From Sulfobacillus thermosulfidooxidans (GTDB lineage Bacteria; Bacillota; Sulfobacillia; Sulfobacillales; Sulfobacillaceae), in assembly GCF_001280565.1 (NCBI RefSeq), contig NZ_LGRO01000001.1, positions 2,294,001 to 2,358,000 of the forward strand: 64,000 bases of DNA, in the 5' to 3' direction. Under the pieces are notes generated by a model. The model was not told the origin of the DNA. It saw only the letters and a program-made list of their open reading frames with translations, and searched no databases. A program made the translations under genes and the position numbers. Each line of letters begins with the position of its first letter. The first letter of the stretch is position 1. Shown here one piece after another: positions 2,538 through 58,523 of this stretch.

Positions 2538-4816
2538 GCCCAAAGACATCGGTTATTGGCAAAGAGGTCATCCGGGAGGACGTTCGCAAGAAGGTTGCAG
2601 GACAGGTGCTCTACAGTGGGGATTGGGTGATGCCGGGCATGCTCTATGCGAAATTGGTGCGTGCAATGTATCCCCATGCCAAAATCAAGAAAATTGACAG
2701 CCGTGGCGCTTACCAGGTGGCTGGAGTGGTGCGGGTGATTGAAGCTAAAGATGTTCCCGTCAATCAGTTTTATGATGATCCGAGCGGGTTGGGTGAAAAG
2801 ATTGCCCAACACAAAGTGTTTCAGGATGATGAGGTGCGGTATGTGGGCGAACCTATTTGTTTGGTCGTTGCCAAGACCCCGGAAGCGGCGGAAAAAGGGG
2901 CTGAGGCGATTTGGGTCGATTACGACGTCTTACCCTCGGTGCATGATCCATTGGAGGCGCTAAAAGAGGATGCCCCTTTAGTGCATCCCAACGGTAATAC
3001 CGTTGTCGAGTGGAATGTGCATAAAGGCGATGTGGACGCCGTCATAGCCGAACCGGGCTTAGTCCATATTCAGCGAACGTACCGCACTCAGTTCGTTGAT
3101 CATTTGTATTTGGAACCGGAATCCGGCGTAGGATGGGTTGATAACGACGGGATTGTGACATTACGCTGTGCTACGCAAGTCCTAGAGCATTACCGGGATA
3201 TTGCCCGGATGTTAAATCTTCCTGAAAATCGGGTCCGGGTCATTTGTCCCTATGTGGGCGGCGGATTTGGCGGGAAAGAAGACATGACGGTAGAACCGTA
3301 TTTGGCTATTGCAGCGTGGATTACTCAAAAACCCGTCAAAATGGTGTGGTCCCGGCAAGAGTCTCTCTCAGCCCGGCCAAAACGGCATCCCTTTATTATG
3401 ACATATGATGTATGGGCCAAGCCTCATGGCGAACTTGTGGCCATGAAAGTCGATATTATCGGGGATGCGGGAGCTTATGCCATGTTATCTCCGCGGGTCT
3501 TATTTGCCGCGGCGGTCGTGGCGACGGGCCCTTACCGAATTGATCACGTTGATGTCAAATCCCACGCGGTGTATACCCACAACGTGCCAACCAGTGCTTT
3601 TCGCGGGTTTGGTGCGATGCAAATGGCTTTTGGTTATGAACAAATTATGGAGGAGATTGCCCAGGAATTGGGCATCGATGCCGTAGAGTTGAGGCGGCGT
3701 CATTTTATCCGCAAAGGCGACCGGTTGGCAACAGGCGAAATTCAGGATACGGCGGTGTGGCTGAATGAGACCATGGATAACGTGCTAGCCGAGCTTGCAA
3801 AAAATCCGGTTCCGGCGGATTCCTCCAAACGCATTGGACGGGGCATTGCCTGCACGATGCAGCCTTATGGCCGGACCGTCTGGTTTCATGATCAAGCTTC
3901 TTGCTGGCTCAATCTCGAGTCCGATGGCAGCGTGATTCTGCGCATTGGTGTGCCGGATATTGGTGGGGGCCAAGCGGCGTCTTTGTGTCAAATTGCTGCG
4001 GAAATTCTTCACGTGCCATTAGAGGATGTGCGTCCCTATTATGGCGACAGTGCGCTCACGCCATTAGCCGGGGGAACATTTGCAACCCGCCAACTGTATA
4101 TGTCGGGCAATGCGGTAGTCCAAGCCGCTTTAGAGCTTCAAGAAAAAATCGACCATGTGCTGACCATGACATGGGGCGAACAACAATGGCAATGGCAAGA
4201 CGGGATTGCTCATTCGGCTTCAGGACTCAGCATATCCCTTCCGGCAATTTATGAAGCCGCCAGTGCCTTACACTATCCTCTTAGTGTGCACACAACGTTT
4301 CATGCCCAAGTTGGCGAAGGATATGACAACCGCCAGGGCCGGGCGCATAAAACCTTTCCCGATTTTACTTTTGGTTGTCATGGCGCGGTGGTGGAAGTGG
4401 ATGAAGACACCGGTATGGTGAAAGTCTTGCGCTATGTCGCCAGTCATGACGTCGGGGTGGCGATTAACCCCTTGAGTGTGGAGGGACAAATTCACGGCGG
4501 GGTCGTGCAAGGGCTCGGTTATGCCTTGTCGGAAGAGGTGGTCTATCAAGAAGGACAGTGTGTGACCACCTTGTTCAGCCAATATATGGTGCCAACAGCT
4601 GAGGAAATGCCTGACATTACCGCCATTATTCTTGAGTCGCACGAGGGCAAAGGGCCATTTCATGCCAGGGGAATTGGGGAACCAGCGATTTCACCTGTCG
4701 CTCCTGCCATAGCCAATGCGATTGCGGATGCCTTAGGCTCACGTTTACGCGTGCGCTCCTTGCCTATTACGGCGGAGAAAATTTGGCGTGAACTCTCTTC
4801 GACGAGCTCAATGTAA
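2519..4816 (+). CDS. Molybdenum hydroxylase, Moco-binding large subunit (first set)
   Basis: About 765 aa, full length for CoxL/XdhA-type large subunits. Residues roughly 18-130 form the xanthine-dehydrogenase a/b hammerhead domain, followed by the Moco-binding domains. Visible signatures are YVGGGFGGKEDM near residue 240, AFRGFGAMQ near residue 360 and the GIGEPA segment near residue 715 holding the expected catalytic Glu. The active-site loop is not AYRCSFR, so this is not a form I CO dehydrogenase; it fits the xanthine/aldehyde oxidase or hydroxybenzoyl-CoA-reductase type branch. The frame is open to 2357, but GAGGAGGTG 8 bases before ATG 2519 fixes the start. Substrate unknown. Confidence 0.9.
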   Translation: MASYVLSPKTSVIGKEVIREDVRKKVAGQVLYSGDWVMPGMLYAKLVRAMYPHAKIKKIDSRGAYQVAGVVRVIEAKDVPVNQFYDDPSGLGEKIAQHKVFQDDEVRYVGEPICLVVAKTPEAAEKGAEAIWVDYDVLPSVHDPLEALKEDAPLVHPNGNTVVEWNVHKGDVDAVIAEPGLVHIQRTYRTQFVDHLYLEPESGVGWVDNDGIVTLRCATQVLEHYRDIARMLNLPENRVRVICPYVGGGFGGKEDMTVEPYLAIAAWITQKPVKMVWSRQESLSARPKRHPFIMTYDVWAKPHGELVAMKVDIIGDAGAYAMLSPRVLFAAAVVATGPYRIDHVDVKSHAVYTHNVPTSAFRGFGAMQMAFGYEQIMEEIAQELGIDAVELRRRHFIRKGDRLATGEIQDTAVWLNETMDNVLAELAKNPVPADSSKRIGRGIACTMQPYGRTVWFHDQASCWLNLESDGSVILRIGVPDIGGGQAASLCQIAAEILHVPLEDVRPYYGDSALTPLAGGTFATRQLYMSGNAVVQAALELQEKIDHVLTMTWGEQQWQWQDGIAHSASGLSISLPAIYEAASALHYPLSVHTTFHAQVGEGYDNRQGRAHKTFPDFTFGCHGAVVEVDEDTGMVKVLRYVASHDVGVAINPLSVEGQIHGGVVQGLGYALSEEVVYQEGQCVTTLFSQYMVPTAEEMPDITAIILESHEGKGPFHARGIGEPAISPVAPAIANAIADALGSRLRVRSLPITAEKIWRELSSTSSM

Positions 4817-4857
4817 AACACCCCACGACAGGCATTATGCGAAAGAAGGGGGAGAAT

Positions 4858-6804
4858 ATGGCCTGTTCTGATGAGAACCCCAAGGGATATCCCGTGATTG
4901 GACGGGATAAAGAAAGACAATTGATGATGGCCGCGTTAATGGCGAAGCGTCCGGTGTTATTGGTGGGAGCTCCGGGGACGTCCAAAACGACGTTATTGCA
5001 AAAGCTGGTGACAGATGTTAAGCAGTTTGGCGGCGTGTACCAGGTCACGGGCGATGATCAATTATCAATAACGGCCCTAGTGGGGACCTATGATCCCGCC
5101 GGTGTGATGAAAGAAGGCTACAAGCCTGAGTATTTTATCCCGGGTCCCTTAACCCTGGCCATGGAACAAGGCGGCATTTTATACATTGAAGAGCTAAACC
5201 GGACTCAAAGTTCAACGTTAAATGCTTTGCTCACCGTCTTGTCAGATGGTTATTTGGATATTCCCCGGCGTGGGCGCATTCAGGCAGCAGAATCTTTTGG
5301 TGTGGTAGCGGCTAGTAACCCGCTCGATGACGTGGGAACCGAACGTTTGTCACGGGCACTGCTTGACCGCTTTGTCACCATCTATTTGGATTACCAAACG
5401 CGAGACGAAGAACAAGAAATTGTCCGTCAGCATGTGCCCGGTGCCGATACCCCATGGATCGACTATAGCGTGGATGTCATTCGGCGGACCAGACAACATC
5501 AAGATTTGCTCTATGGATCGTCTGTGCGGGGAGCTATTGATTTCCTGAAAATCTTAGAACAGATGTCTTGGGATGGGAATGATATTGTTTGGGATGTCGG
5601 GATTGCTGCCCTATCTAGCAAAGTGGCCGCACGTCCGTCCACAGGGCGCCCGGTGAAAGACATTATTCTTGAGATCATGCAAGCTCTGCCCTTGCCTGAT
5701 TCCCCTCCTTTTCGCCCTGTTCCCCCTCTGCCAAAGCTTCCTGGGGCTGAGAATGCGCCAGACATTCGAGCCATTCAGGGGGGTCACGGGGAAGACAACA
5801 ATGGCAAGATAACGGAAGCGGTTTGTGAGATGCCCCAAGACTTTCCGCCATCTCCGTCCGCTTCTACCCGCATTGACATGGCATGGCAAGCCGGAACAGG
5901 AGGAAGCCGGGGGCGTTCTTCTTTACCTGAATCCCCGCGTTTGCCATCGTCTTTGCACTTTGGACTCACTCAGCACGAGGAGCGAACTCCGGATAAACTC
6001 TTGACGCCATGGATCGATGAAGCCATATTAAAACGCCTGCGATCGTCCCATTATGCGCCGTTATCGCCCACGATTTCAACGTCCTGGGGCCGGCGATATC
6101 AAGGTCATCACGTCGTGCCTTTTCAAAAGAAGCGATTGGGAGAACTGGACGTTGGGGCCACAATGGATAATTTGGCCCGAGATCCGGCGCGTGAATGGAT
6201 TTCGTCGATGATGATGCGTGAATTAAGACCCGGCACCCGTCATTTTGCCTTGCTGGTGGATCATTCGGGATCAATGGCTGGAGAGAAATTGGCCGTGGCC
6301 TTGGCTATTACGAGTGTCTTGGCCTATTTTTCGCATACGCTCAAAATGGCCTACGGTGTTTACGTCTTTGATCAACAGGTGCATGAGATTAAACGGGTGA
6401 AGGATTACCGCACGCTCGATGAGGTCATCGATCATTTAATCCATTTGGAAGAAGGCCGCAGTACCGATTTATCCCTAGCCCTTCAATATGCGGCTCAATT
6501 AACCGATGGGGACCCGGATCTTGAAGTCATTGTCGTCAGCGATTTGATGCCGACCCGGGGAGAAAAGACCTATGGGGCATTACGTCGTAGGATTCAAAGA
6601 ATCCCCCATCTATATCTCTGTCATGTACCGAAACCGACCGATGTCTTCTTTTCCAAAACGATTGGCAATCATCGAGAAACTCTTGATCTCTACGGGCTGT
6701 GGGGATTGTCTTGGGTTGGCATAAAACGGTTCTGTTCGGTGACAAGCCTAGAGGATATCAACAAGTTTTTTGACTTGCTTTCAGGCCGGGATATGTGGCT
6801 TTAG
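4858..6804 (+). CDS. MoxR-type AAA+ ATPase fused to CoxE-like VWA protein
   Basis: About 648 aa with two modules that are normally separate genes (CoxD and CoxE). Residues about 10-270 are a MoxR-type AAA+ ATPase with Walker A GAPGTSKTT and Walker B GGILYIEELNR. A Pro/Ser/Gly-rich linker of about 120 residues follows. Residues about 450-640 form a von Willebrand A domain with the MIDAS sequence LVDHSGSMAG. In CO dehydrogenase operons CoxD/E assist maturation of the Mo active site; the position between two hydroxylases suggests the same role for one or both (inference). ATG 4858 is chosen because AAGAAGGGGGA lies just upstream; ATG 4837 is in frame but lacks such a site. Confidence 0.88.
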   Translation: MACSDENPKGYPVIGRDKERQLMMAALMAKRPVLLVGAPGTSKTTLLQKLVTDVKQFGGVYQVTGDDQLSITALVGTYDPAGVMKEGYKPEYFIPGPLTLAMEQGGILYIEELNRTQSSTLNALLTVLSDGYLDIPRRGRIQAAESFGVVAASNPLDDVGTERLSRALLDRFVTIYLDYQTRDEEQEIVRQHVPGADTPWIDYSVDVIRRTRQHQDLLYGSSVRGAIDFLKILEQMSWDGNDIVWDVGIAALSSKVAARPSTGRPVKDIILEIMQALPLPDSPPFRPVPPLPKLPGAENAPDIRAIQGGHGEDNNGKITEAVCEMPQDFPPSPSASTRIDMAWQAGTGGSRGRSSLPESPRLPSSLHFGLTQHEERTPDKLLTPWIDEAILKRLRSSHYAPLSPTISTSWGRRYQGHHVVPFQKKRLGELDVGATMDNLARDPAREWISSMMMRELRPGTRHFALLVDHSGSMAGEKLAVALAITSVLAYFSHTLKMAYGVYVFDQQVHEIKRVKDYRTLDEVIDHLIHLEEGRSTDLSLALQYAAQLTDGDPDLEVIVVSDLMPTRGEKTYGALRRRIQRIPHLYLCHVPKPTDVFFSKTIGNHRETLDLYGLWGLSWVGIKRFCSVTSLEDINKFFDLLSGRDMWL

Positions 6805-48185: not shown

Positions 48186-50002
48186 ATAGGGCTCCTCTTC
48201 CGCACGTGATGGGTGAAAGCCGTGGAATTTATCCCGAGGGTCTAGGGGGCACCTGCGTGTAAATCGTATCCGTAAAACCCAATGCGGCCAAAATGGCCGC
48301 CACCGACTGGGTATGAACCGCCGGGACAAAGAGTTGACGGGTCTGGGCATCCAGCGGCACAACAATCAGTCCGCGCAGATGATGTAACACCTCCTGCCCG
48401 GTGGGCCGCGCCAACAGACCGCGAGTCGGCGTGGGAAGGGGCGGGGCCTGCCGGGCCCGACGTTCGATGAGACTGAGCACTAACGCGGCGAGCAAGAGCA
48501 CATAACCTAAGGCTTCCACCCGTTCCGGCTTTTGCACATAGAGCGCATCCACAAAGGCCGGGTCTTTTAAAAAGCGAAAACGGTGTTCGATGACCGTCTG
48601 ACCTTTGTATTCTTCGAGCAATCGGCGGGCATCAAAGGAGGAGGCCGGCAGATTGGTGATTAAGACAAACGTCGCCGCCCGGTCCTGTGCCGCCTGCACG
48701 CGTTGCGCATCGACTGCCCCAATGGTGGGATGGACCCGGTATACTGTGGTGGTAGCCGGTTCGGGGGCATCGTGGCGGGGACGCCCGCGGGTAGTGCGTT
48801 TGGGGACCTGTGTTTCCGCGACAACCGTCGCCTCGACATGATGCCATTGGGCGGTAGCCCGCCAAGCGGCCACGGCCGCTTCGGCATCATGAGCACAGGC
48901 AAACACGGTCTCCGCGAGGCGAGTCGCCGCCTGGGTTAACTGGTTATGGGCCCGTTCGATCTGGCGGGCGATGGTGTGAACTTTCCGCTCAGCCAGATGA
49001 TCGGATCGATAAACCACGAGCCGATAGGATCGGCCCTCAATTTCGCCGGTCTGTTCGGCGGCCGCGTAGGTGGCCGCATCGGCACGCTCCCCGATTTTGC
49101 CGAGGGGAACCCAGGCGTTGGCCGCCAAGGCGGCCGTCTTCGCATCGTGCGCGGCTCGAAATGTCTCCGGACAACGCGAGAGAAAGCGGAGTGAACGGTC
49201 AGCCATTGCCTTTAAGTTAGGACCTGTGATGAGAGCGGAATCGGCCACGTAGACAAGTTGTTGCAGTTGGTGAGGCGAAAAGTAATCGTCTAAGGCCGCA
49301 ATCATCTCGGCATTGAGGGTTTTATCACTCAGATTCCCGTCTTGCACCGTGCCCACCACCGGAATGCCTTCTCGGGTCCCCAACAGCGTCAGGAGAATTT
49401 GACGCAGATCGGGACGATGATCCTTGGAATGGCCATAGGTGGGATGCACTCCGGTCTCGGATCCGGTGTCCGGATACGTGCCATAGACCGAGCGGGTCGT
49501 ACTATCCCAGTGGACAAACACCGGACTATCGGGCGTCCACACGTGGTCGTGCAAGAGCGCTCGCGTTGCAACGGCACTGAAGACGGTGGCGCCACCAGCG
49601 GCGGCGACTTTATCCAGAGCCCGTCCGAGGGCATCATCCGTAAAATCGGCCGCGGTGCGGCCGGATCCAAACAACAAGGGCACATCGGTTAACTGAAATT
49701 GCTCGTGGACGCGATACAGAGGTCGACGAGCGGTGAGCAAATTGACGACGAGCGCGAAAATCCGTTCGCCGGGCGACAGGTGGCAACGCTGCGAATCCCA
49801 CGCAACGGTCTGATTTATGGCCTCGACGAATCCAATTTCTTCACAGAGGGCTCGGATGACCGGTCCAGCCCCCACAACAACGGGTGTCGGCATGGGTGTG
49901 TTCATAAGAGATTACTTCGCCATGCGATACCCAATCTCCTTTGCGATCAGCCCAAAAAAATAATTTTTTTTGTTCCTGCCACGTGCGGAAAGTAAGATAG
50001 GG
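48186..50002 (-). mobile_element. IS1634-family insertion sequence with 6-bp target duplication
   Basis: The element spans about 48192-49996, flanked by direct repeats ATAGGG (48186-48191 and 49997-50002). Its ends share an inverted repeat: CT then TTCCGCACGTG at 48198-48208 on the left and the exact complement at 49980-49990 on the right, each six bases from the outer edge. It carries one transposase gene. The IS DNA is visibly more GC-rich than its surroundings. The intact duplication and complete transposase suggest recent insertion and probable activity. Confidence 0.88.
48229..49905 (-). CDS. IS1634-type DDE transposase
   Basis: 558 aa. N-terminal DUF4277-type domain (about 8-110; ALCEEIGFVEAINQTV, ALVVNLLTARRPLYRV), then a DDE RNase-H-fold core: first Asp in VFVHWDSTTRS, second in LVYVADSALIT, Glu in GQTVIEHRFRFLKDP near residue 450. 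Catalyses cut/paste or copy-type movement of this element. It fills almost the entire IS and appears intact. Overlapping frames on the other strand are codon-bias shadows. Confidence 0.93.
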   Translation of the reverse strand: MNTPMPTPVVVGAGPVIRALCEEIGFVEAINQTVAWDSQRCHLSPGERIFALVVNLLTARRPLYRVHEQFQLTDVPLLFGSGRTAADFTDDALGRALDKVAAAGGATVFSAVATRALLHDHVWTPDSPVFVHWDSTTRSVYGTYPDTGSETGVHPTYGHSKDHRPDLRQILLTLLGTREGIPVVGTVQDGNLSDKTLNAEMIAALDDYFSPHQLQQLVYVADSALITGPNLKAMADRSLRFLSRCPETFRAAHDAKTAALAANAWVPLGKIGERADAATYAAAEQTGEIEGRSYRLVVYRSDHLAERKVHTIARQIERAHNQLTQAATRLAETVFACAHDAEAAVAAWRATAQWHHVEATVVAETQVPKRTTRGRPRHDAPEPATTTVYRVHPTIGAVDAQRVQAAQDRAATFVLITNLPASSFDARRLLEEYKGQTVIEHRFRFLKDPAFVDALYVQKPERVEALGYVLLLAALVLSLIERRARQAPPLPTPTRGLLARPTGQEVLHHLRGLIVVPLDAQTRQLFVPAVHTQSVAAILAALGFTDTIYTQVPPRPSG

Positions 50003-50016
50003 GATTTTCTTCCTGT

Positions 50017-51294
50017 TTATTCAGCCAAAGATTCTTTGGATAAATTTTCTGCTAGGGGCGTCCAACGTTTATGCAGTTGCTTAAGAACCGTAATAGCTAA
50101 AATCGCTGTCAACACGTCCATTAAAGCAACGATAACAAAGACAGGTGTCCAACTACCTGTGGCACTTTCTAGGGATGCGGACAATGGACCGCCTAATAAC
50201 GCGCCCACACCTTGAGCCATGTAGAGTAACCCATAGTTGAGTGTGGCATGCTCACTACCATAAAAATCGGTCAGTGTTGAAGGGAATAATGAGAAGATTT
50301 CTCCCCAGCCAAAGAAGGCTAGGCCGGTTAAAACCACAAATAATGCGGGATTTGTAACAAAGGAGATTAATAGAACGATGGATAGAGCTTCCAATGAGAA
50401 CGCGATAAACATCGTATTCTCTCGACCAATGGAGTCGGATAACCACCCGAAAAATGGTCGGGTAAGACCATTCGTGAATCGGGATAGCGTGAGAGATAGA
50501 GGAAGTGCTGCAACACCCAAAACCAAAGCATGACTGACACCATAATCCTTGGCTATAGGACCCACTTCAGAAACAATCATCAATCCACTTGTAGACATCA
50601 TGGACATCATGATAAACAATAACCAAAATGGTGCCGTTCGCAACATTTCGGAAGGACGATAAGATTTCGTTCGATTTGCAATGGATGTTGCCTTAGGTTG
50701 ATAGGAGGGGGGTTTAACAAGTCCTTGTGCGGCAATCAATCCCACTGCACCTTGGATTATTCCGAACAGGAATAAGGCGTGGGAATAACCGGACGTCTTG
50801 ATCATGTGTGCGATCGGGAAAGTCGTCAAAATAGCACCCGCCCCGTATCCCGCGGCTGCCAGACCGGTAGCGAGTCCACGGCGGTGGGGGAACCAACGAA
50901 CCATTAAACCAATGACACCGACATAAATAATGCCAGAACCAATTCCTCCTAACACACCGTATGTCAAATAAAGTTGAGTAATACTGGAGACGGTAGCAGA
51001 AAAGAACCAACTCGCTCCAATTAAGAGTGAGCCTATGGTCATGAGAAGACGAGGTCCAAAACGTTCGATCAAAAAAGCTTGGAATGGAGAAAACCATGTC
51101 TGAAGCACAACGAAGATCGAAAATGTTACCTGAATTGCGGCGAGACTCCCACCTAGATGTTTTTGAATCGGATCGACAAATAGTGTCCAGACATATTGAG
51201 AACTCGAAATACTCATCATCAAAATAATTCCCAGGACGAGCTGTCTCCATTGTGTGGATTTGGCAGAAAATGATGGGGACGTTATTTGTGTCAT
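50017..51294 (-). CDS. OFA-type MFS transporter (oxalate/formate antiporter-like)
   Basis: 425 aa, twelve hydrophobic segments, long central loop with KPPSYQPKATS. Typical OFA features: WTLFVDPIQKHLGGS near the start, FGPRLLMTIGSLL and GGIGSGIIYVG. Characterised members exchange oxalate and formate; others move various small acids. Its terminal codon is 20 bases from the IS end, so the IS interrupts its 3' untranslated region. AAAGGAGG precedes ATG 51294. The formamidase gene 3 kb away yields formate, which may be this carrier's substrate (inference). Confidence 0.88.
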   Translation of the reverse strand: MTQITSPSFSAKSTQWRQLVLGIILMMSISSSQYVWTLFVDPIQKHLGGSLAAIQVTFSIFVVLQTWFSPFQAFLIERFGPRLLMTIGSLLIGASWFFSATVSSITQLYLTYGVLGGIGSGIIYVGVIGLMVRWFPHRRGLATGLAAAGYGAGAILTTFPIAHMIKTSGYSHALFLFGIIQGAVGLIAAQGLVKPPSYQPKATSIANRTKSYRPSEMLRTAPFWLLFIMMSMMSTSGLMIVSEVGPIAKDYGVSHALVLGVAALPLSLTLSRFTNGLTRPFFGWLSDSIGRENTMFIAFSLEALSIVLLISFVTNPALFVVLTGLAFFGWGEIFSLFPSTLTDFYGSEHATLNYGLLYMAQGVGALLGGPLSASLESATGSWTPVFVIVALMDVLTAILAITVLKQLHKRWTPLAENLSKESLAE

Positions 51295-52555
51295 CTCACA
51301 GTCCTCCTTTGGAAAAAGGCCGATTTATTCACTACAGGATATACCGATGGATAGAAATAGCGGAAAAATATCAAAACAACGTAAGGAATTAACTGAATTT
51401 ATGTTAGAAATTTAGTTTATTGATTATAAATAATAACAAAGCCGCCGTGTTGGCGGTTTATTTGAGCAAACAAACTTGTGACCGGAATCTATATAAAAAT
51501 ACAAACGTGCTATCAGGCCAGTTGTACAGAGCGAAGAGAATATATTAGGAAGATGACAAAAGAAATGATCATCATAATCTTGCCTAACCAATAGAATTTG
51601 CCTGTTTTTGCGCAATGTGAACGTGCGGGGAAATAGTCGCAAGGAGAGAAGTTATTGCTTGAAGTGAATGCCTGGTTGTTTGATCTACAAAGAACTGTTA
51701 GGCAAGTTATGCGGTAAGAGCTACGTTAAACTCATACTACCCCGCTGTGTGAGTTGGTTGAGAGATGTGCATCGGGGTAAAAGGATCTGTCGAGCGAAGA
51801 CTCTATGGTTTACGGTTAGATTATTGTAATCAAAGATCGGCGCCCATTTTTCCCGGTAATAGAGATTAATATAATTTTAAGGGTGAATAGAGTCTCACAC
51901 ATGCTTGATACGGCATGATAAAACAGTTGTTATCCCCCGCGGGATTTATATCTAGTTAATGGTATCGGTTTGGAACTATCGATAATTGTCTTTGCGATGA
52001 GACAATGGATTACAGTGTGTGCCGAAAAACTAGACAAGTTGGGGGACCCTAAAGTATTACACTGCATATACAATGGCGAAACAATACTGGTATTCCGCTA
52101 TCGTCTGACAGACTCACAGAATTTGCATCCAACTAATCCATAGATGGACATACCTGGCCACATTTTGATGGGAAATCTGCGAAACCTTAGAAATCCCCTT
52201 AGTATTCACGGCCTCTAAGTGGACATTGTCCATTGCGGCCTCACCATTGAAAATCATGCTTCCATGCGTATTTTACCCGTCACAAATGTACGGTTTGACT
52301 GTTGGCCAATGGCCAGTAAAAGTGAGCATCAAACCTGTGTTTACTAAACGGTGTGGCGGCTCGACAGCTATCCACGACTTCACCCTTCGTTAGCATATGG
52401 CGGCTAACAGGTCCCGATCACGTGTAACGAGTGGCTAATTATTAGGATAAAGTTAGAGAATATTCACATCTCGTTATTAGTTTCTATGCACCCAAATATC
52501 GGAATAGATAACAATTATTGGTTATTTTGCCAAAGTATTTTACAGAAACTTCCAG
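51295..52555. other. Large intergenic region with an orphan terminator
   Basis: About 1.26 kb with no supported gene. It includes a CCGCC-GTGTT-GGCGG hairpin at 51438-51462 with A and T tracts on both sides, upstream of the minus-strand OFA gene. A minus-strand 72-codon frame (51424-51642) overlaps the hairpin and is not convincing. A TATAAT box at 52556-52561 near the right end precedes the NCS1 permease gene but lacks a good -35. Confidence 0.45.
51438..51462. terminator. Bidirectional rho-independent terminator without an obvious parent gene
   Basis: AAAGCCGCC-GTGTT-GGCGGTTT with T-rich flank TATTT (+) and CTTTGTTATT (-). It lies 144 bases before the OFA start, so on the minus strand it could act as a leader attenuator; on the + strand nothing precedes it. 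Confidence 0.55.
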
Positions 52556-52612
52556 TATAATTTCATATTGATTCAAGGAAATTTCACATTCTTCTCTATA
52601 GGAGGTGCCCAT

Positions 52613-54265
52613 GTGAGTAAGCCATCCAAACGACGATTTAATGCGCTGGTGAATAACCCCGTGATGGAAGATTATGCGTTGCGGTATGCGCCCCAGTCCT
52701 TTCGCCGCTGGAGTGAATTTGCCGTGGCCAGTTCCGCCTTAGGTGGGATTGCCTACTTAGCCGACTTTGCGATTGGCGGCTCTATTACCTTAAGTTATGG
52801 CTTTACCAACGCCTTGACGGCGATTCTGGTTGTGGCGGTAATCATTTTTCTCACGGGGATTCCCATCGCCTATTATGCGGCCCGCGATAACATTGATATG
52901 GATTTGCTCACGCGCGGCGCGGGGTTTGGCTACTATGGATCGACCTTAACCTCGCTGGTGTATGCCTCGTTTACCTTTATTTACTTCTCGTTGGAAGGCT
53001 CGGTCATGTCGCAGGCGATTACGGCCTACTTTGGCATTCCCTTAGCAGTGAGTTATGTGATCGCGTCTTTGCTCATTATTCCCCTAGTCATCTACGGCAT
53101 GACCTTTTTGTCGAAGCTGCAAGTGTGGACCCAACCCGTCTGGTTAGCGCTCTTAATTCTGCCGCTGATTGTCCTCGCCACCAAAGATCCCCACGCCTTT
53201 GTCCACTGGACCCATTTTGCAGGGAGCGCGGGCCGTGCCGGCTTCAATGCCTTGCTCTTCGGGTCTGCCGCCGGGGTCGTGTTGTCCTTGATTGCACAAA
53301 TTGGCGAACAAGTCGATTACCTCCGCTTTATGCCGAATCTGACCGCGCAAAATCGGCGGGCGTGGTGGTGGGCGGTCATTCTGGCCGGGCCGGGGTGGGT
53401 CGTGTTAGGCGCGGCCAAACAAATTGGGGGATCGGTACTCGCGTCGTATATTGCTCCGCAAGTGGGCCCGGTCAAAGCCGATGAACCGATTCAAATGTAT
53501 TTGCATGCGTTGCATTTGTGGATTCCCAATGTCGCCATGGCGTTAACCCTTGGGACCTTTTTCGTCCTCCTTTCGCAAATCAAAATTAATGTCACCAATG
53601 CCTATTCGGGATCCCTGTCGTGGTCCAACTTCTTTTCGCGGATTTTTCATGTCCATCCTGGCCGCGTGGTCTGGCTGGTGCTGAATGTGGGGATTGCCCT
53701 GACCTTGATGGAACTCGGTGTCTTTGGCTTTTTGGGCAGTATTTTAGGGTTTTATTCCAATGTGGCGGTGGCGTGGATTGGTGCCGTCGTGGCGGATTTG
53801 GTGATTAATAAGCCGCTGTTGAAGCTGAGTCCGAGCTATATCGAATTTAAACGGGGCCACTTGTATAATTTTAATCCGGTGGGATTCGGATCCATGGTCA
53901 TCGCCTCCGCCGTGTCGATTGCGGCCTACTTTGGCCTCTTTGGCAAAGTCCTGAGCGCGTTCTCCCCCTTCTTATCGCTCGGGCTCGCCTTCGTCCTGTC
54001 CCCGATTATTGCCCTTCTCACGCACGGCAAATATTACATTGCCCGCACCAGCCCCACGATTCCCGAGAGTCCCGACGGCGTGGCCTGTGCCGTGTGTGAC
54101 TTTCGCTTTGAAGCGCACGATATGGTGGACTGTCCCCATCACGCAGGCACCGTGTGTTCGTTATGTTGCAGTTTGGAAGCCGACTGTCATGACCGCTGCA
54201 AAGTTCCCGGGAGCTATATTCACATCGCCCCCGCTATGCAGGAAAATATGAGCCCTCGCGTCTAA
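52613..54265 (+). CDS. NCS1-family permease with Cys-rich C-terminal tail
   Basis: About 550 aa. Eleven or twelve spans over about 45-470 with NCS1 (cytosine/hydantoin permease) features: NNPVMEDYALRYAPQSFR, GLFGSA-like GFTNALTAIL and LRFMPN after GEQVDYL. After the last span (about 485) comes a ~40-residue Cys/His segment: CAVCDFRF, VDCPHHAG, CSLCCSLEADC, HDRCK, a likely metal-binding knot. The tail is unusual for a plain permease. GTG 52613 follows TAGGAGG; ATG 52611 is out of frame. Notably GC-rich compared with its neighbours. Likely co-expressed with the formamidase 55 bases downstream. Confidence 0.85.
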   Translation: MSKPSKRRFNALVNNPVMEDYALRYAPQSFRRWSEFAVASSALGGIAYLADFAIGGSITLSYGFTNALTAILVVAVIIFLTGIPIAYYAARDNIDMDLLTRGAGFGYYGSTLTSLVYASFTFIYFSLEGSVMSQAITAYFGIPLAVSYVIASLLIIPLVIYGMTFLSKLQVWTQPVWLALLILPLIVLATKDPHAFVHWTHFAGSAGRAGFNALLFGSAAGVVLSLIAQIGEQVDYLRFMPNLTAQNRRAWWWAVILAGPGWVVLGAAKQIGGSVLASYIAPQVGPVKADEPIQMYLHALHLWIPNVAMALTLGTFFVLLSQIKINVTNAYSGSLSWSNFFSRIFHVHPGRVVWLVLNVGIALTLMELGVFGFLGSILGFYSNVAVAWIGAVVADLVINKPLLKLSPSYIEFKRGHLYNFNPVGFGSMVIASAVSIAAYFGLFGKVLSAFSPFLSLGLAFVLSPIIALLTHGKYYIARTSPTIPESPDGVACAVCDFRFEAHDMVDCPHHAGTVCSLCCSLEADCHDRCKVPGSYIHIAPAMQENMSPRV

Positions 54266-54320
54266 ACGACGAAGGATCTCTTTATTTCATGATCTTTATT
54301 TGGAAAGGATTGATGAAACC

Positions 54321-55484
54321 GTGGCGAAAGTCTTATTTCATGTTGATCCGAAGAAATCAATGACTGAACAAGATCTACCCGGTCATAACAGGTGGCATCC
54401 GGATATTCCAGCGGAAATTGGAGTTAAACCCGGTGAAGATTTTCGGGTGGAATGTATGGAATGGACCGATGGACAAATTCACAATACTGACAGTCCTGAG
54501 GATGTGGCCACGGTTGATCTTTCCCGAACCCACATGCTAAGTGGCCCCTTTGCCATCAAAGGTGCTGAACCTGGGGATCTTCTTGTGGTGGACATCCTCG
54601 ACATTGGATCACTTGAAGGCTGGGGATATACGGGTATTTTTGCGAAGGAGAATGGCGGAGGTTTTCTGACAGATATCTTTCCTGAAGCACGCAAGGCGAT
54701 TTGGGATTTCCATGGAATCTATGCAACTTCTAGACATTTACCAGGAGTAAAATTTGCTGGCATCTCCCATCCTGGACTCATTGGATGTGCGCCATCCCAC
54801 GCATTACTTGAAGAGTGGAACAAACGAGAACAAGAACTTGTCGCGACCGATCCTAATCGCGTTCCTCCCTTAGGACTCTTGCCTCTAGCCGAAAATGCAC
54901 TTTTGGGAACACTCAAAGGTGCTCAGCGTGATCGTGTGGCTCGAGAAGCTGCGCGTACGATTCCGCCGCGCGAACACGGAGGGAATGTCGATATTAAAAA
55001 TTTGTCTCGGGGAACTCGCATTTATTTTCCCGTCTATGTCCGTGACGCGTTGTTGTCTGTAGGGGACTTGCACTTTTCGCAAGGCGATGGAGAAATCACG
55101 TTTTGTGGGGCTATCGAAATGTCGGGTTGGATTGATCTCGGTGTAGACATCATCAAGGACGGAATGAATCGATACGGCATTACCAGTCCTCTCTTCCAAC
55201 CCGGACCGGTGGAACCTCATTATTCACAGTATCTAACATTTGAAGGAATTTCTGTTGAAAATGGCCGGAATTATTATTTAGATGCCACCATTGCTTATCG
55301 TCAGGCTGCTTTGCATGCTATCGATTATCTCACCAATTTCGGTTACACGCGTGAACAAGCCTATTTATTGCTCGGTGCAGCCCCTATTGAAGGACGTATT
55401 GGTGGTGTGGTGGATATTCCCAATGCCTGTGTGTCGCTCGGCATTCCCCTTGAAATCTTTGAACAAGATATTCGACCTCGGTAA
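54321..55484 (+). CDS. fmdA: Formamidase/acetamidase
   Basis: About 387 aa, FmdA_AmdA family. Characteristic stretches: PGHNRWHPDIPAEIGVKPG near residue 20, LSGPFAIKGAEPGDLLVVDI, HPGLIGCAPS (position of the active Cys region), REHGGNVDIKNLSRGTRIYF and HFSQGDGEITFCGAIE. Hydrolyses formamide (or acetamide) to formate/acetate and ammonia in the cytoplasm. GTG 54321 is the start that matches the family N-terminus (AKVLFHVDPKK); TTG 54300 is in frame but overlaps the GGAAAGGA site. Terminator follows 47 bases after the stop. Confidence 0.92.
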   Translation: MAKVLFHVDPKKSMTEQDLPGHNRWHPDIPAEIGVKPGEDFRVECMEWTDGQIHNTDSPEDVATVDLSRTHMLSGPFAIKGAEPGDLLVVDILDIGSLEGWGYTGIFAKENGGGFLTDIFPEARKAIWDFHGIYATSRHLPGVKFAGISHPGLIGCAPSHALLEEWNKREQELVATDPNRVPPLGLLPLAENALLGTLKGAQRDRVAREAARTIPPREHGGNVDIKNLSRGTRIYFPVYVRDALLSVGDLHFSQGDGEITFCGAIEMSGWIDLGVDIIKDGMNRYGITSPLFQPGPVEPHYSQYLTFEGISVENGRNYYLDATIAYRQAALHAIDYLTNFGYTREQAYLLLGAAPIEGRIGGVVDIPNACVSLGIPLEIFEQDIRPR

Positions 55485-55531
55485 TAGTAAAAGTTCGACA
55501 AATAACATGTTCACGGCAAAAGCTTCTTAAA

Positions 55532-55575
55532 AGTCGATTTCGGTCTCTATTACGGAGCCGAAATCGACTCTTTGC
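55532..55575 (+). terminator. Rho-independent terminator after the formamidase gene
   Basis: AGTCGATTTCGG (55532-55543) pairs perfectly with CCGAAATCGACT (55558-55569) around a 14-base loop and is followed by CTTTGCTT. It ends the NCS1-fmdA unit and separates it from crcB. Confidence 0.85.
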
Positions 55576-55665
55576 TTGCAAGATGCTCGTGTTGCCGTCA
55601 GAAAACAACTTCTTCGTGCTTACTATAGTCACCTAGAAGATTACCAACAAGAGAAGGGAGCTGCG

Positions 55666-56019
55666 CTGAACGAGGTCATTATTTTTATCGGCGGATTTTT
55701 GGGAGCGGTGGCGCGATTTCAGGTTGGACAATGGGTTGGACAGCGCACGAGCGGGGGCTTTCCGTATGGCACGTTAGTCATTAATACGCTGGGTTGTCTC
55801 TTCATTGGGCTCATTGTGTCCCGGTTTTCCTCAGGAGCCGTCTTTAATTTCTTGGATGTGGGCTTTACTGCCGCCTTTACCACGTTTTCAACCTTTAGCT
55901 ATGAAACCTGGCGGCTTATCGAAGAAAAATTACTGGGTTTGGCGTTTTTGAATGTTTTGTTCAATGTCGGTCTCGGGCTGGCGGGCGTCGAAATCGGTCT
56001 CCTGCTGGGGAGGGTTTAA
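55666..56019 (+). CDS. crcB: Fluoride channel CrcB/Fluc, first copy
   Basis: About 117 aa, four-span Fluc channel. GGFLGAVARF, PYGTLVINTLGCLFIG and the TTFSTFSYET segment (filter Phe/Thr region) are conserved. Exports fluoride as a dual-topology dimer. The frame is open to TTG 55576 but no Met fits the normal N-terminus; a CTG at 55666 with GAAGGGAG 7 bases upstream gives LNEVIIFIGGFLGAV, so an unusual CTG start is possible, with TTG 55576 as the longer alternative. Fluoride riboswitch not detected. Four bases separate it from the second, broken copy. Confidence 0.82.
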   Translation: MNEVIIFIGGFLGAVARFQVGQWVGQRTSGGFPYGTLVINTLGCLFIGLIVSRFSSGAVFNFLDVGFTAAFTTFSTFSYETWRLIEEKLLGLAFLNVLFNVGLGLAGVEIGLLLGRV

Positions 56020-56023
56020 GCCC

Positions 56024-56438
56024 ATGAAAAATTGGATATGGGTAGGCCTAGGCGGTGGTCTCGGCGCCTTAGCGCGGACGGGTCTGGAGCCAATCGGAAC
56101 GTATCATCAACTGCCCGTCAATTTCTTTCTCATTAATGTCTTGGGCAGCTTCTTCATTGGGATCATCATGGCCCTCAGTGCGGAACTGGGTGTCTTAGCC
56201 AATCAATGGCGTTTGTTTTGAGGCGTGGGCGTCTTGGGGGGGATTTACGACGTTTTCGACGTTTATGTTAGGGGTGTATATGTTATGGCAGGGCACGAAA
56301 GGCTTGGCGGTGCTGTATTTGACCGGGACGCTTTTCACCGGCTTGGCGGCTGCGTTTGCGGGCTTGGTGGTGATTCGCGAAGTAGCTCGCATCGCGGTAT
56401 CGCAAACTCAATTAGAAGATACTGAGGATGAGGTATGA
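56024..56438 (+). pseudogene. crcB: crcB second copy, disrupted by a stop and a frameshift
   Basis: Begins MKNWIWVGLGGGLGALART, a normal CrcB N-terminus, with GGGGAGGG upstream. At codon 66 TGA (56219-56221) stands where Trp is expected (RLF-stop-GVGVLGG). Seventeen bases on, a run of seven G (56236-56242) shifts the frame; with six G the next 64 codons read FTTFSTFMLGVYMLWQGTKG and the standard fourth span, ending at TGA 56436-56438. Both lesions together make it non-coding as it stands. Heteromeric Fluc pairs are common in Firmicutes, so the first copy may now act alone. Confidence 0.88.
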
Positions 56439-57293
56439 ACTGGAACGAAAGTGATGTCAGAGTTGGGGCAGAATTCACTAACCTGTTGCTCGCTGTTTTG
56501 GTCGACTTCAACTACGTATTACAACACACTCTCGATAATCTCTGTATCCTATCTGCCTCTTAGCCCCATCCATCTTACATTACGTATAAACTCAGCACTG
56601 GTATATCCGCGATGCTAATATGAATATATCGCCTAACCTTTCCATAACAGGGGGCTATAGACGATCCCTTCATTTCTTCCTCAAAGGTATGCTACCCCTT
56701 ATTGGAATGATTGTTGTTAATATCAGCTCGCTGACGATCTTCTCAAAGTGATGGGACGACTTCGGTTACCAAGTTCCATGTTACAGCGTAAATTCTTAAT
56801 GTGACTACTATGGTGCCTTTGTGTCATTCTCACGAGTTCAGGATCAAGAACCATGAGTCCGGTAGCCGTTCCTTGAATGTCCCGTGTCGATGTTGAGAGA
56901 TCACGGCATAGCAATCTGCAGATTTTTTCACTCAGTAATTTTTTTAAGCGTTCATTCTCATTCACCAGGGTCATGACATCGCGGGGATAGTGCGCGGCTT
57001 TTACCACCTCACGCACCCCAGCAACGCGCCATCGACGGACTATAAGCTGATGGCGACGAGCGACTGGTGTGGCATTTAGCGTGTGTTGAGCTTCTTAGAC
57101 AATCTGTTGTTTGAATTCCGGTGAAAAAGTTTGATGCATTGTACCATTTGTGCCGAAAGATGGTCGCACTGGCGACATGTGCCTTGTCCCACAACCTTAC
57201 CACAAGATACGGCATCGATTTTCTCATCTCATCAAGACAAGTGCGGAATCGGTGTGATCCGATTCCGCCTGGTGATCCCGTAGACTTCTCGGA
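56439..57293. other. Intergenic region holding an IS3 orfA remnant
   Basis: About 855 bases. The right half carries the transposase remnant described separately; the left half (56439-56720) has no ORF of note. Hairpin-free in my reading. Confidence 0.5.
56870..57139 (-). pseudogene. IS3-family transposase OrfA remnant
   Basis: Read on the minus strand from ATG 57139: HQTFSPEFKQQIV then TAA at codon 15, then the frame continues EAQHTLNATPVARRHQL and later VNENERLKKLLSEKI, the leucine-zipper end typical of IS3 OrfA proteins. After about residue 90 the frame diverges. OrfB, and both IS ends, are not visible. A decayed element. Confidence 0.65.
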
Positions 57294-58523
57294 TTAAGAG
57301 ACTGAGGATAAAGGGCTGACTTCCGCTGAATCGGCTAGTCCTTTGCTGAGACTCTGCAAAATCAGCAGGCAAATGGCCGACGCGATAAGTCCGCCGATCA
57401 TAAAGAGAAACCCGCCGGTGAAAGAATGCGTGGCAGTCACGATGATACCCACAACAATCGGTGCAAAAAAGCCTCCGATTTGGCCCCCGAAGTTGACAAA
57501 ACCGGTAAATGTGCCGCGCAGGCTGTCGGGAATGAGGTCCAAAGGGATAGCCCAGATAGGACCAAACCCGCCGAACAGGAAGAAGGCCGCGGCGGATAAG
57601 GCAAAGACGGTGCCGCCGATGGTATGGGCGTTATATGCCATATACAGAAAGATGCCAGAGACTAAATAGCTAATGGCGACGAGGCTTGACTTGTATCGGC
57701 CAATGCGAGTGCCAATCCACCCGATAATGACCAGACCGAAGAATCCCAGGACATAGGGAACGGAGGCATCAAATCCTAATGCTGACAAATCGATGTGGCG
57801 ACTGAGCGAGAGATAGCTGGGCATCCATCCCAAAAATCCCCAAAACGCTACGTTAAAGAACAGATAAGCCAAGAAGACTAACCAAATGCCTGGCTGCTCC
57901 AAAACCGTCTTCCAATTAAGGTGTCGGCCAGACTTCACGCGAACGGGGGTATGAACCACTCCGCCTGGCGGCTTTACAGGAATAAGAAAGTAGATGAGCA
58001 CCGCCATAATGATGCCGGGAATCGTAAACAATAAGAACAAGGCTCGCCAGCCCACGGTGCCTAGCAACCAGGTAGAGACCGGGGCGACAAAAGCGGGGCC
58101 GAGCGCGATGGCTGTCAAGAAGAGTCCGTTAGCCCAACTGCGTTCTTTCGAGGTAAAAAAATCTCCTATAAGTTTAAATTGGGCCCCATTTTCCAGGCCT
58201 TCACCCACTCCAAACAACACCCGAGTTACGATGAGCATGGTCGCTCCAATGGCAAGCCCTGTGAGTCCGGTAAAGACGGACCACCAGACAAGAGCGACTA
58301 CCAACAAGGTTCGGGCGCCAAATCGATCTGCTAACCACCCGCCGGGTATTTGCAAAATTGCATACCCAAACGTAAATGCCGATAACACCACACCAAAAAG
58401 GGCGGGACTCATGTGCAGACCCTTCATCATCATCGGGCCGGCGACCGAAATGTTAATGCGATCCAGGTAAGCGACAAACATCATGAGCCAGATCAGAATG
58501 AGCATGGTCCATTTCTTGTTCAC
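57294..58523 (-). CDS. MFS transporter, anion:cation symporter family
   Basis: About 409 aa, twelve spans. N-terminal MMFVAYLDRINISVAGP and GYAILQIPGGWLADRFGAR match the ACS (sialic acid, glucarate, phthalate-type) family signature. Imports organic anions with H+ or Na+. GTG 58523 follows AAAGGGGG by 6 bases; TTG 58529 overlaps it. A good promoter lies 102 bases upstream and the gene is divergent from an IclR regulator, the usual arrangement for a substrate-inducible carrier. Confidence 0.88.
   Translation of the reverse strand: MNKKWTMLILIWLMMFVAYLDRINISVAGPMMMKGLHMSPALFGVVLSAFTFGYAILQIPGGWLADRFGARTLLVVALVWWSVFTGLTGLAIGATMLIVTRVLFGVGEGLENGAQFKLIGDFFTSKERSWANGLFLTAIALGPAFVAPVSTWLLGTVGWRALFLLFTIPGIIMAVLIYFLIPVKPPGGVVHTPVRVKSGRHLNWKTVLEQPGIWLVFLAYLFFNVAFWGFLGWMPSYLSLSRHIDLSALGFDASVPYVLGFFGLVIIGWIGTRIGRYKSSLVAISYLVSGIFLYMAYNAHTIGGTVFALSAAAFFLFGGFGPIWAIPLDLIPDSLRGTFTGFVNFGGQIGGFFAPIVVGIIVTATHSFTGGFLFMIGGLIASAICLLILQSLSKGLADSAEVSPLSSVS

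Follow-up and report, generated by a model that had tools for sequence, protein, structure and literature searches.

Is a permease gene that ends in a cysteine-rich module a transporter under the control of that module, or what is left of a sensor? The question arises from a window of 64,000 nucleotides of the Sulfobacillus thermosulfidooxidans genome, the whole stretch of DNA analyzed here, in which a complete open reading frame on the forward strand (GTG start at 52613, stop codon at 54263-54265) encodes a protein of 550 residues. A sequence-only reading had seen in it an NCS1 permease with a Cys/His-rich C-terminal module, had likened the module to tails between transporter-like domains and histidine kinases, and had considered both a metal-regulated transporter and a shortened sensor. 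The features discussed below are collected in Table 1.

Table 1. Features of the permease gene and of the gene that follows it, in window coordinates
Feature	Position	Strand	Basis or remark
Strong ribosome-binding site AGGAGGTG	52600-52607	+	5 bases between site and GTG; sequence
Whole gene: NCS1-fold permease with C-terminal 8-Cys module, 550 aa	52613-54265	+	Sequence, fold model
Permease domain, residues 1-478, LeuT/NCS1 fold	52613-54046	+	CodB match, model range 16-473
Phe52, TM1	52766-52768	+	Glu in kinase-fused relatives
Ser332, TM8	53606-53608	+	Ala in kinase-fused relatives
Variable linker, residues 479-491	54047-54085	+	Mean majority fraction 0.37 vs 0.67 in tail
8-Cys finger-like module, residues 492-530	54086-54202	+	Conservation, prediction of beta-hairpins and helix
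His510 of CPxH, in tail	54140-54142	+	Tyr in kinase forms
fmdA formamidase, next gene	54300-55484	+	NF045496, 661 bits, cut-off 500

The permease fold and its gene neighborhood

Searches with the window protein returned no Pfam family at E ≤ 10, no NCBIfam model and no PDB sequence match. Its AlphaFold2 model, built on an alignment of 48 sequences, is confident (pLDDT 89.7, pTM 0.90), and the top four rows of a VIA comparison with the PDB are all NCS1 proteins (Z 28-36.5). CodB is the best match (Z 36.5, 399 residues aligned, 3.2 Å) and Mhp1 matches with Z of 28.3-32.0; other LeuT-fold proteins rank next, at Z 24, and SLC5-type folds are far below the NCS1 proteins. A family profile of 48 relatives retrieves CodB at E 8.8e-6, one of the 48 aligned members matches PF02133 (E 5.9e-11), and the tail-less relative L267 scores above the NCS1 Pfam cut-off (41.9 vs 23.5 bits). 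Given the VIA ranks, the profile match to CodB and the passing score of L267, the NCS1 assignment is right at the level of the modeled fold, for a divergent branch; the family name given from sequence thus stands by its likeness to CodB and Mhp1 and, for the window protein itself, finds no backing in Pfam. The SLC5 (sodium:solute symporter) family of Pfam matches neither the window protein nor the kinase-fused relatives described below. An hhalign alignment to Escherichia coli CodB, made for the residues of the Na2 sodium site in TM1 and TM8, is weak and gapped in TM8, and it gives Lys324 no firm position relative to the sodium site of CodB.

The formamidase gene fmdA starts 34 bp after the permease stop on the same strand and is the probable operon partner of the permease; no kinase follows, as had been noted from the sequence. 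Around the locus, an Rfam scan of window positions 50000-58000 gave no match, a promoter scan gave five hits against a shuffle mean of 6.7 and so did not exceed the shuffles, and a terminator scan gave seven against 4.9. Divergent from the permease-formamidase pair lies an oxalate/formate antiporter gene (50017-51294, reverse strand; TIGR04259, 451.5 bits, cut-off 335), which could export the formate product or be there by coincidence. An intact-looking IS1634-family transposase gene (48229-49905, reverse strand) lies near the amide genes. Downstream, a CrcB fluoride channel (55576-56019, forward strand; TIGR00494) is overlapped by a frame at 55952-56221 that by eye resembles the start of a second CrcB-like protein.

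The same genome carries three plain copies of the permease, each with the tail: the window gene, a 99% identical copy without a formamidase neighbor (L002, C1:694741-696381) and a 32% identical paralogue (L003 628-3058). The paralogue stands directly 5′ of a gene of the D-glutamate-cyclase family (PF07286) and perhaps takes another amide-like substrate.

A scan of genome contigs confirmed 195 relatives in Firmicutes, Actinobacteria, Proteobacteria, Cyanobacteria and other groups, and the best 80 were kept; alignments of 48 and 30 sequences (A1 and A2) were drawn from the window protein and 90 listed relatives, with three short fragments left out. Among these best 80 of the 195, formamidase, amidase or urease genes were found in the fetched flank of 40 plain loci, and the number rises to 62 if AmiC-like periplasmic-type binding proteins are included, leaving 18 with none. 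The plain form of Acinetobacter ursingii, for example, stands 5′ of a full urease operon, and in the bacilli of loci L019, L025 and L034 an AmiC-like gene adjoins the permease and amidases. In L019, the one of the three scanned with Pfam, the AmiC-like protein is fused to a sigma-54 activator domain (3944-6799, reverse strand), and its sequence would fit another amide sensor. Urea or amide genes were found within ~9 kb of none of five actinobacterial permeases with reduced tails and neither of two tail-less relatives.

The cysteine-rich tail

The last 59 residues hold the module, with cysteines at 492, 495, 507, 515, 518, 519, 525 and 529 (54086-54199) in the order C492-AV-C495-...-C507-PHH-...-C515-SL-C518-C519-...-C525-HDR-C529-K, where CPHH spans residues 507-510. 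The early description of the module proved accurate, and far from being absent from the homologues, all eight cysteines are present in 93 of 94 family ORFs (83 loci, the window included); the exception, at locus L068, is an N-terminal half gene split by a stop. There, one in-frame stop (L068 8796-8798) splits a Streptomyces permease. The spacing C-2-C-11-C-7-C-2-CC-5-C-3-C is unchanged in 157 of 158 motif-matching sequences, a degree of conservation that is beyond chance. When 40 of the 80 family genomes were searched with a profile of the tail, every one of the 40 had it. The frames bearing it were almost all of ~520-820 aa (plain permeases) or 1108-1352 aa (kinase forms); outside these ranges fell a 48-aa remnant and one kinase frame of 790 aa. 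Two lone tails without a permease (L114 3636-3779 and L257) look like remnants and not like new architectures.

In a broader set, all 72 kinases and 97 of the 112 plain permeases have the full complement of eight cysteines, the degenerate tails having been met during the family search, so that their frequency is not an unbiased estimate. Eleven of the 15 incomplete plain permeases retain C492, C495, C515 and C518 and lose C519, C525 and C529, with C507 lost in five and retained in six; one shows the reverse, with the second group of cysteines retained and C495 and C518 lost. Nearly all cysteines are gone from another, and the last two have no tail. As 10 of the 11 half-tail proteins fall, together with the one that has lost nearly all, into a single clade, these losses represent about three events and not 11. 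The pattern suggests two metal sites, a putative one of C492, C495, C515 and C518 and another of C507, C519, C525 and C529. Three half-tail proteins (L120, L135 and L145) adjoin urease or formamidase, and the second half of the tail is therefore dispensable for that association.

Modeled alone, the tail has a pLDDT of 80.8, with beta-hairpins and a helix predicted. Its best PDB matches are zinc fingers of the treble-clef or cross-brace kind (PHD, RING, FYVE, ZZ and LIM), all weak and at chance level (best Foldseek E 0.49, best VIA Z 3.7), and with rows this weak a zinc-finger family absent from those listed may still fit. Pfam and PDB sequence searches with the tail alone gave nothing usable and tied it to no Pfam family, a Prok-RING_1 match of a single member (E 5.3) being at chance level. 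The structural matches being weak, zinc is the metal that we infer and not one that the comparison identifies.

Fusion to histidine kinases

In the second form of the family, the order is permease, a tail of the identical type, two predicted TM segments, HisKA, HATPase and REC, and the tail stands exactly between the permease and the signaling part. The suggested arrangement of such tails between transporter-like domains and histidine kinases is thus real, and the search for the tail in other proteins recovered these fusions. At several loci, a longer, kinase-form member adjoins a plain permease.

Among 299 Pseudomonadota species genomes, 42 had any family match and 38 a full-length or near-full-length member (37 of 298 besides the centre genome). 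These genomes encode 43 full-length or near-full-length proteins; the frame is 894-1261 aa long for 42 of them and 604 aa long for the other. We fetched the regions of 40 of them, leaving out two in G233 (equal to L078) and a partial one in G462. The eight-cysteine tail was present in all 40 and an H-box, by pattern, in 39. Genes for urt, formamidase or amidase, or urease were found within ~9 kb of 39 of the 40 kinases, the remaining region ending at a contig edge, and a LuxR-type regulator was nearby in 36; none of 20 control windows of equal size, taken elsewhere on contigs of the same set, contained any such genes. Two short kinase forms without REC (L200 and L206; 894-899 aa) lie near formamidase genes and are basal in the proteobacterial clade. 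In cyanobacteria, the kinases (L286-L293) are 963-1072 aa long with a different, non-hybrid kinase part, and urea or amide genes were found within ~9 kb of none of the eight, two of the regions being cut by contig ends.

Kinase forms also occur on plasmids. A family match is present in 534 PLSDB records, of which 342 are from Klebsiella, and the Klebsiella matches among those listed and named are mostly kinases; in the records, "ATP-binding protein" is the name used for the kinase, and plain forms appear as "hypothetical protein" or "allantoin permease". In ten regions, chosen by hand and not at random, nine of the annotated kinases stand beside urea or amide genes. The neighbor is urtABCDE in Klebsiella, Burkholderia vietnamiensis, Sinorhizobium meliloti, Rhizobium, Thioclava, Methylobacterium and Chelatococcus, urease in Mitsuaria, and formamidase together with a plain permease in Methylovirgula; the neighborhood of the Azospirillum lipoferum kinase contained no urea or amide genes. 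A regulator is adjacent in all ten, that of Klebsiella being an ORF absent from the PLSDB table.

The fusion has a single origin in the tree of the permease domain. All 71 kinases form one clade (support 0.998) nested within the plain permeases, with two cyanobacterial plain permeases as its sister (0.996), and the proteobacterial kinases are monophyletic within it (0.989); the window protein branches among the plain permeases, outside the kinase clade. One fusion was probably followed by an exchange of the kinase part. Three positions separate the forms. Residue 52 is Glu in 71 of 71 kinases (one fragment lacks the position) and in none of 112 plain permeases, residue 332 is Ala in 72 of 72 kinases and 3 of 112 plain permeases (Ser in 106), and residue 510 is Tyr in 72 of 72 and 3 of 112, respectively (His in 99). 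The window protein has Phe52, Ser332 and His510 and none of the kinase-form residues.

Proposed function and comparison with known systems

We think it probable that the window gene encodes a permease for formamide or urea-type substrates with a cytoplasmic two-metal finger that subsequently came to serve as the junction in a urea/amide receptor kinase. The protein would be a 12-TM-type NCS1-fold permease for the import of urea or short-chain amides; formamide is the most likely cargo here, and FmdA would hydrolyze it to formate and ammonia. The 39-residue cytoplasmic module would bind two zinc ions and, directly after the last TM helix, could follow the inward or outward state of the permease. 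Cytoplasmic ends are a property of the fold of known NCS1 proteins, and the position of the tail after the last helix accordingly places it to report the state of transport. In plain permeases the module may act as a handle for docking or gating. Elsewhere among bacteria, a single fusion by way of a TM hairpin joined permease and module to histidine kinases, giving what would be a receptor that controls the genes for uptake and hydrolysis of urea and amides. The nature of the substrate, the identity of the metal and the relay of conformation through the module are the inferred parts of this scheme.

A wider proposal, to which we give slightly better than even credence, is that the kinase forms make up a class of kinases, so far undescribed, that act as receptors for urea and short-chain amides and derive from one fusion of a working NCS1-type amide permease at the pre-existing two-metal finger, with the window gene representing the plain, pre-fusion state. 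The conversion of transporter to receptor would have involved a few fixed replacements: Glu for Phe or Gln at residue 52 in TM1, Ala for Ser at residue 332 and often also at 336 in TM8, and Tyr for His at residue 510 in the finger. The kinase would still adjoin its plain twin in some acidophiles, and elsewhere it would control urtABCDE-formamidase or urease genes, those on conjugative plasmids of Klebsiella included.

Other readings of the tail and of the permease fit parts of the evidence. That the tail is a docking site for a soluble partner, such as formamidase, a PII-type protein or the kinase twin, and senses nothing, is somewhat unlikely: plain permeases that have no kinase retain the tail and enzymes of the same pathway adjoin the permease, but no single partner gene is common to all loci, and the 18 of 80 loci mentioned above have none of the enzymes or binding proteins searched for. 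The switch suggested by the sequence-only reading, with zinc, iron or the thiol state of the tail gating transport, would agree with eight invariant cysteines at fixed spacing and with the retention of the tail in plain permeases of organisms in whose searched genomes the kinase form is absent. We nevertheless consider it unlikely, as general knowledge of the NCS1 fold would place a tail at its C-terminus in the reducing cytoplasm, the fixed CxxC pairs and the predicted beta-hairpins and helix look structural, and no metal-resistance or redox genes recur, as judged by eye, in the neighborhood clusters.

As for the cargo, the closest solved relatives carry cytosine and hydantoins and some records name an allantoin permease, so that the substrate might be nucleobase-like or hydantoin-like and the amide and urea genes merely encode downstream catabolic steps; against this, the recurring neighbors (formamidase, short-chain amidase, urease and urt) have the smallest amides as their substrates, and we find such a substrate quite unlikely. 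Least credible is the shortened sensor, a kinase-fused ancestor of the window gene that lost its kinase. Kinase forms with the same tail do exist, but since they make up a single clade nested among plain permeases, the window gene is no shortened sensor; the 32% identical paralogue of the same genome is also plain and tailed, and with the kinase-form residues missing from the window protein we rejected this candidate as extremely improbable. The preferred reading remains that of an amide permease whose tail preceded the fusion.

With CodB and Mhp1 the window protein shares the NCS1 fold over about 400-430 residues; it differs from them in falling below detection by PF02133, in its additional eight-cysteine tail and in its amide/urea gene context. 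Searches of the openly licensed PMC literature brought up neither an account of an NCS1-type sensor kinase nor one of the tail, nor any function that would make the latter a known feature of a family of plain transporters. A gene cluster similar to that divergent from the Klebsiella plasmid kinase, urtABCDE with formamidase, is found in the UTS urea ABC cluster of Klebsiella CG307. The report on it names UrtABC/AmiF, and the term "histidine kinase" is absent from its main text (PMC13060141). A figure legend shows a hybrid kinase and a LuxR regulator beside urtABCDE in Ectopseudomonas guguanensis, and the legend and the passages seen contain no mention of a permease-type sensor or a Cys tail (PMC13296017).

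About one in eight of the sampled Pseudomonadota species has the kinase form, which is also present on many Klebsiella plasmids, and a urea or amide signal is a natural guess for the control of urea uptake in such cells. The finding bears on how the movement of a transporter reaches a kinase. Since the plain and kinase forms share the junction, are set apart by a small number of fixed residues and may stand side by side in one locus, the conversion of a transporter to a receptor is open to tests at the level of single residues.

Most of the known transporter-derived sensor kinases are built on SLC5 proteins. In the SLC5/STAC kinases (CbrA, CrbS/MxtR and RpuS), a small module likewise connects a transporter-derived input to a kinase: in CbrA the transporter domain is linked to the kinase through a STAC module (PMC7918813, PMC13022988), and RpuS/R activates a neighboring symporter operon (PMC9100948), as far as the parts of these reports seen describe. 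The proteins studied here have an NCS1-type permease in place of SLC5, a Cys-rich finger and a TM hairpin in place of STAC, and a urea/amide gene context. By analogy, the kinase form would work like the SLC5/STAC group without being a member of it, because the transporter family differs and the linker bears no sign of sameness.
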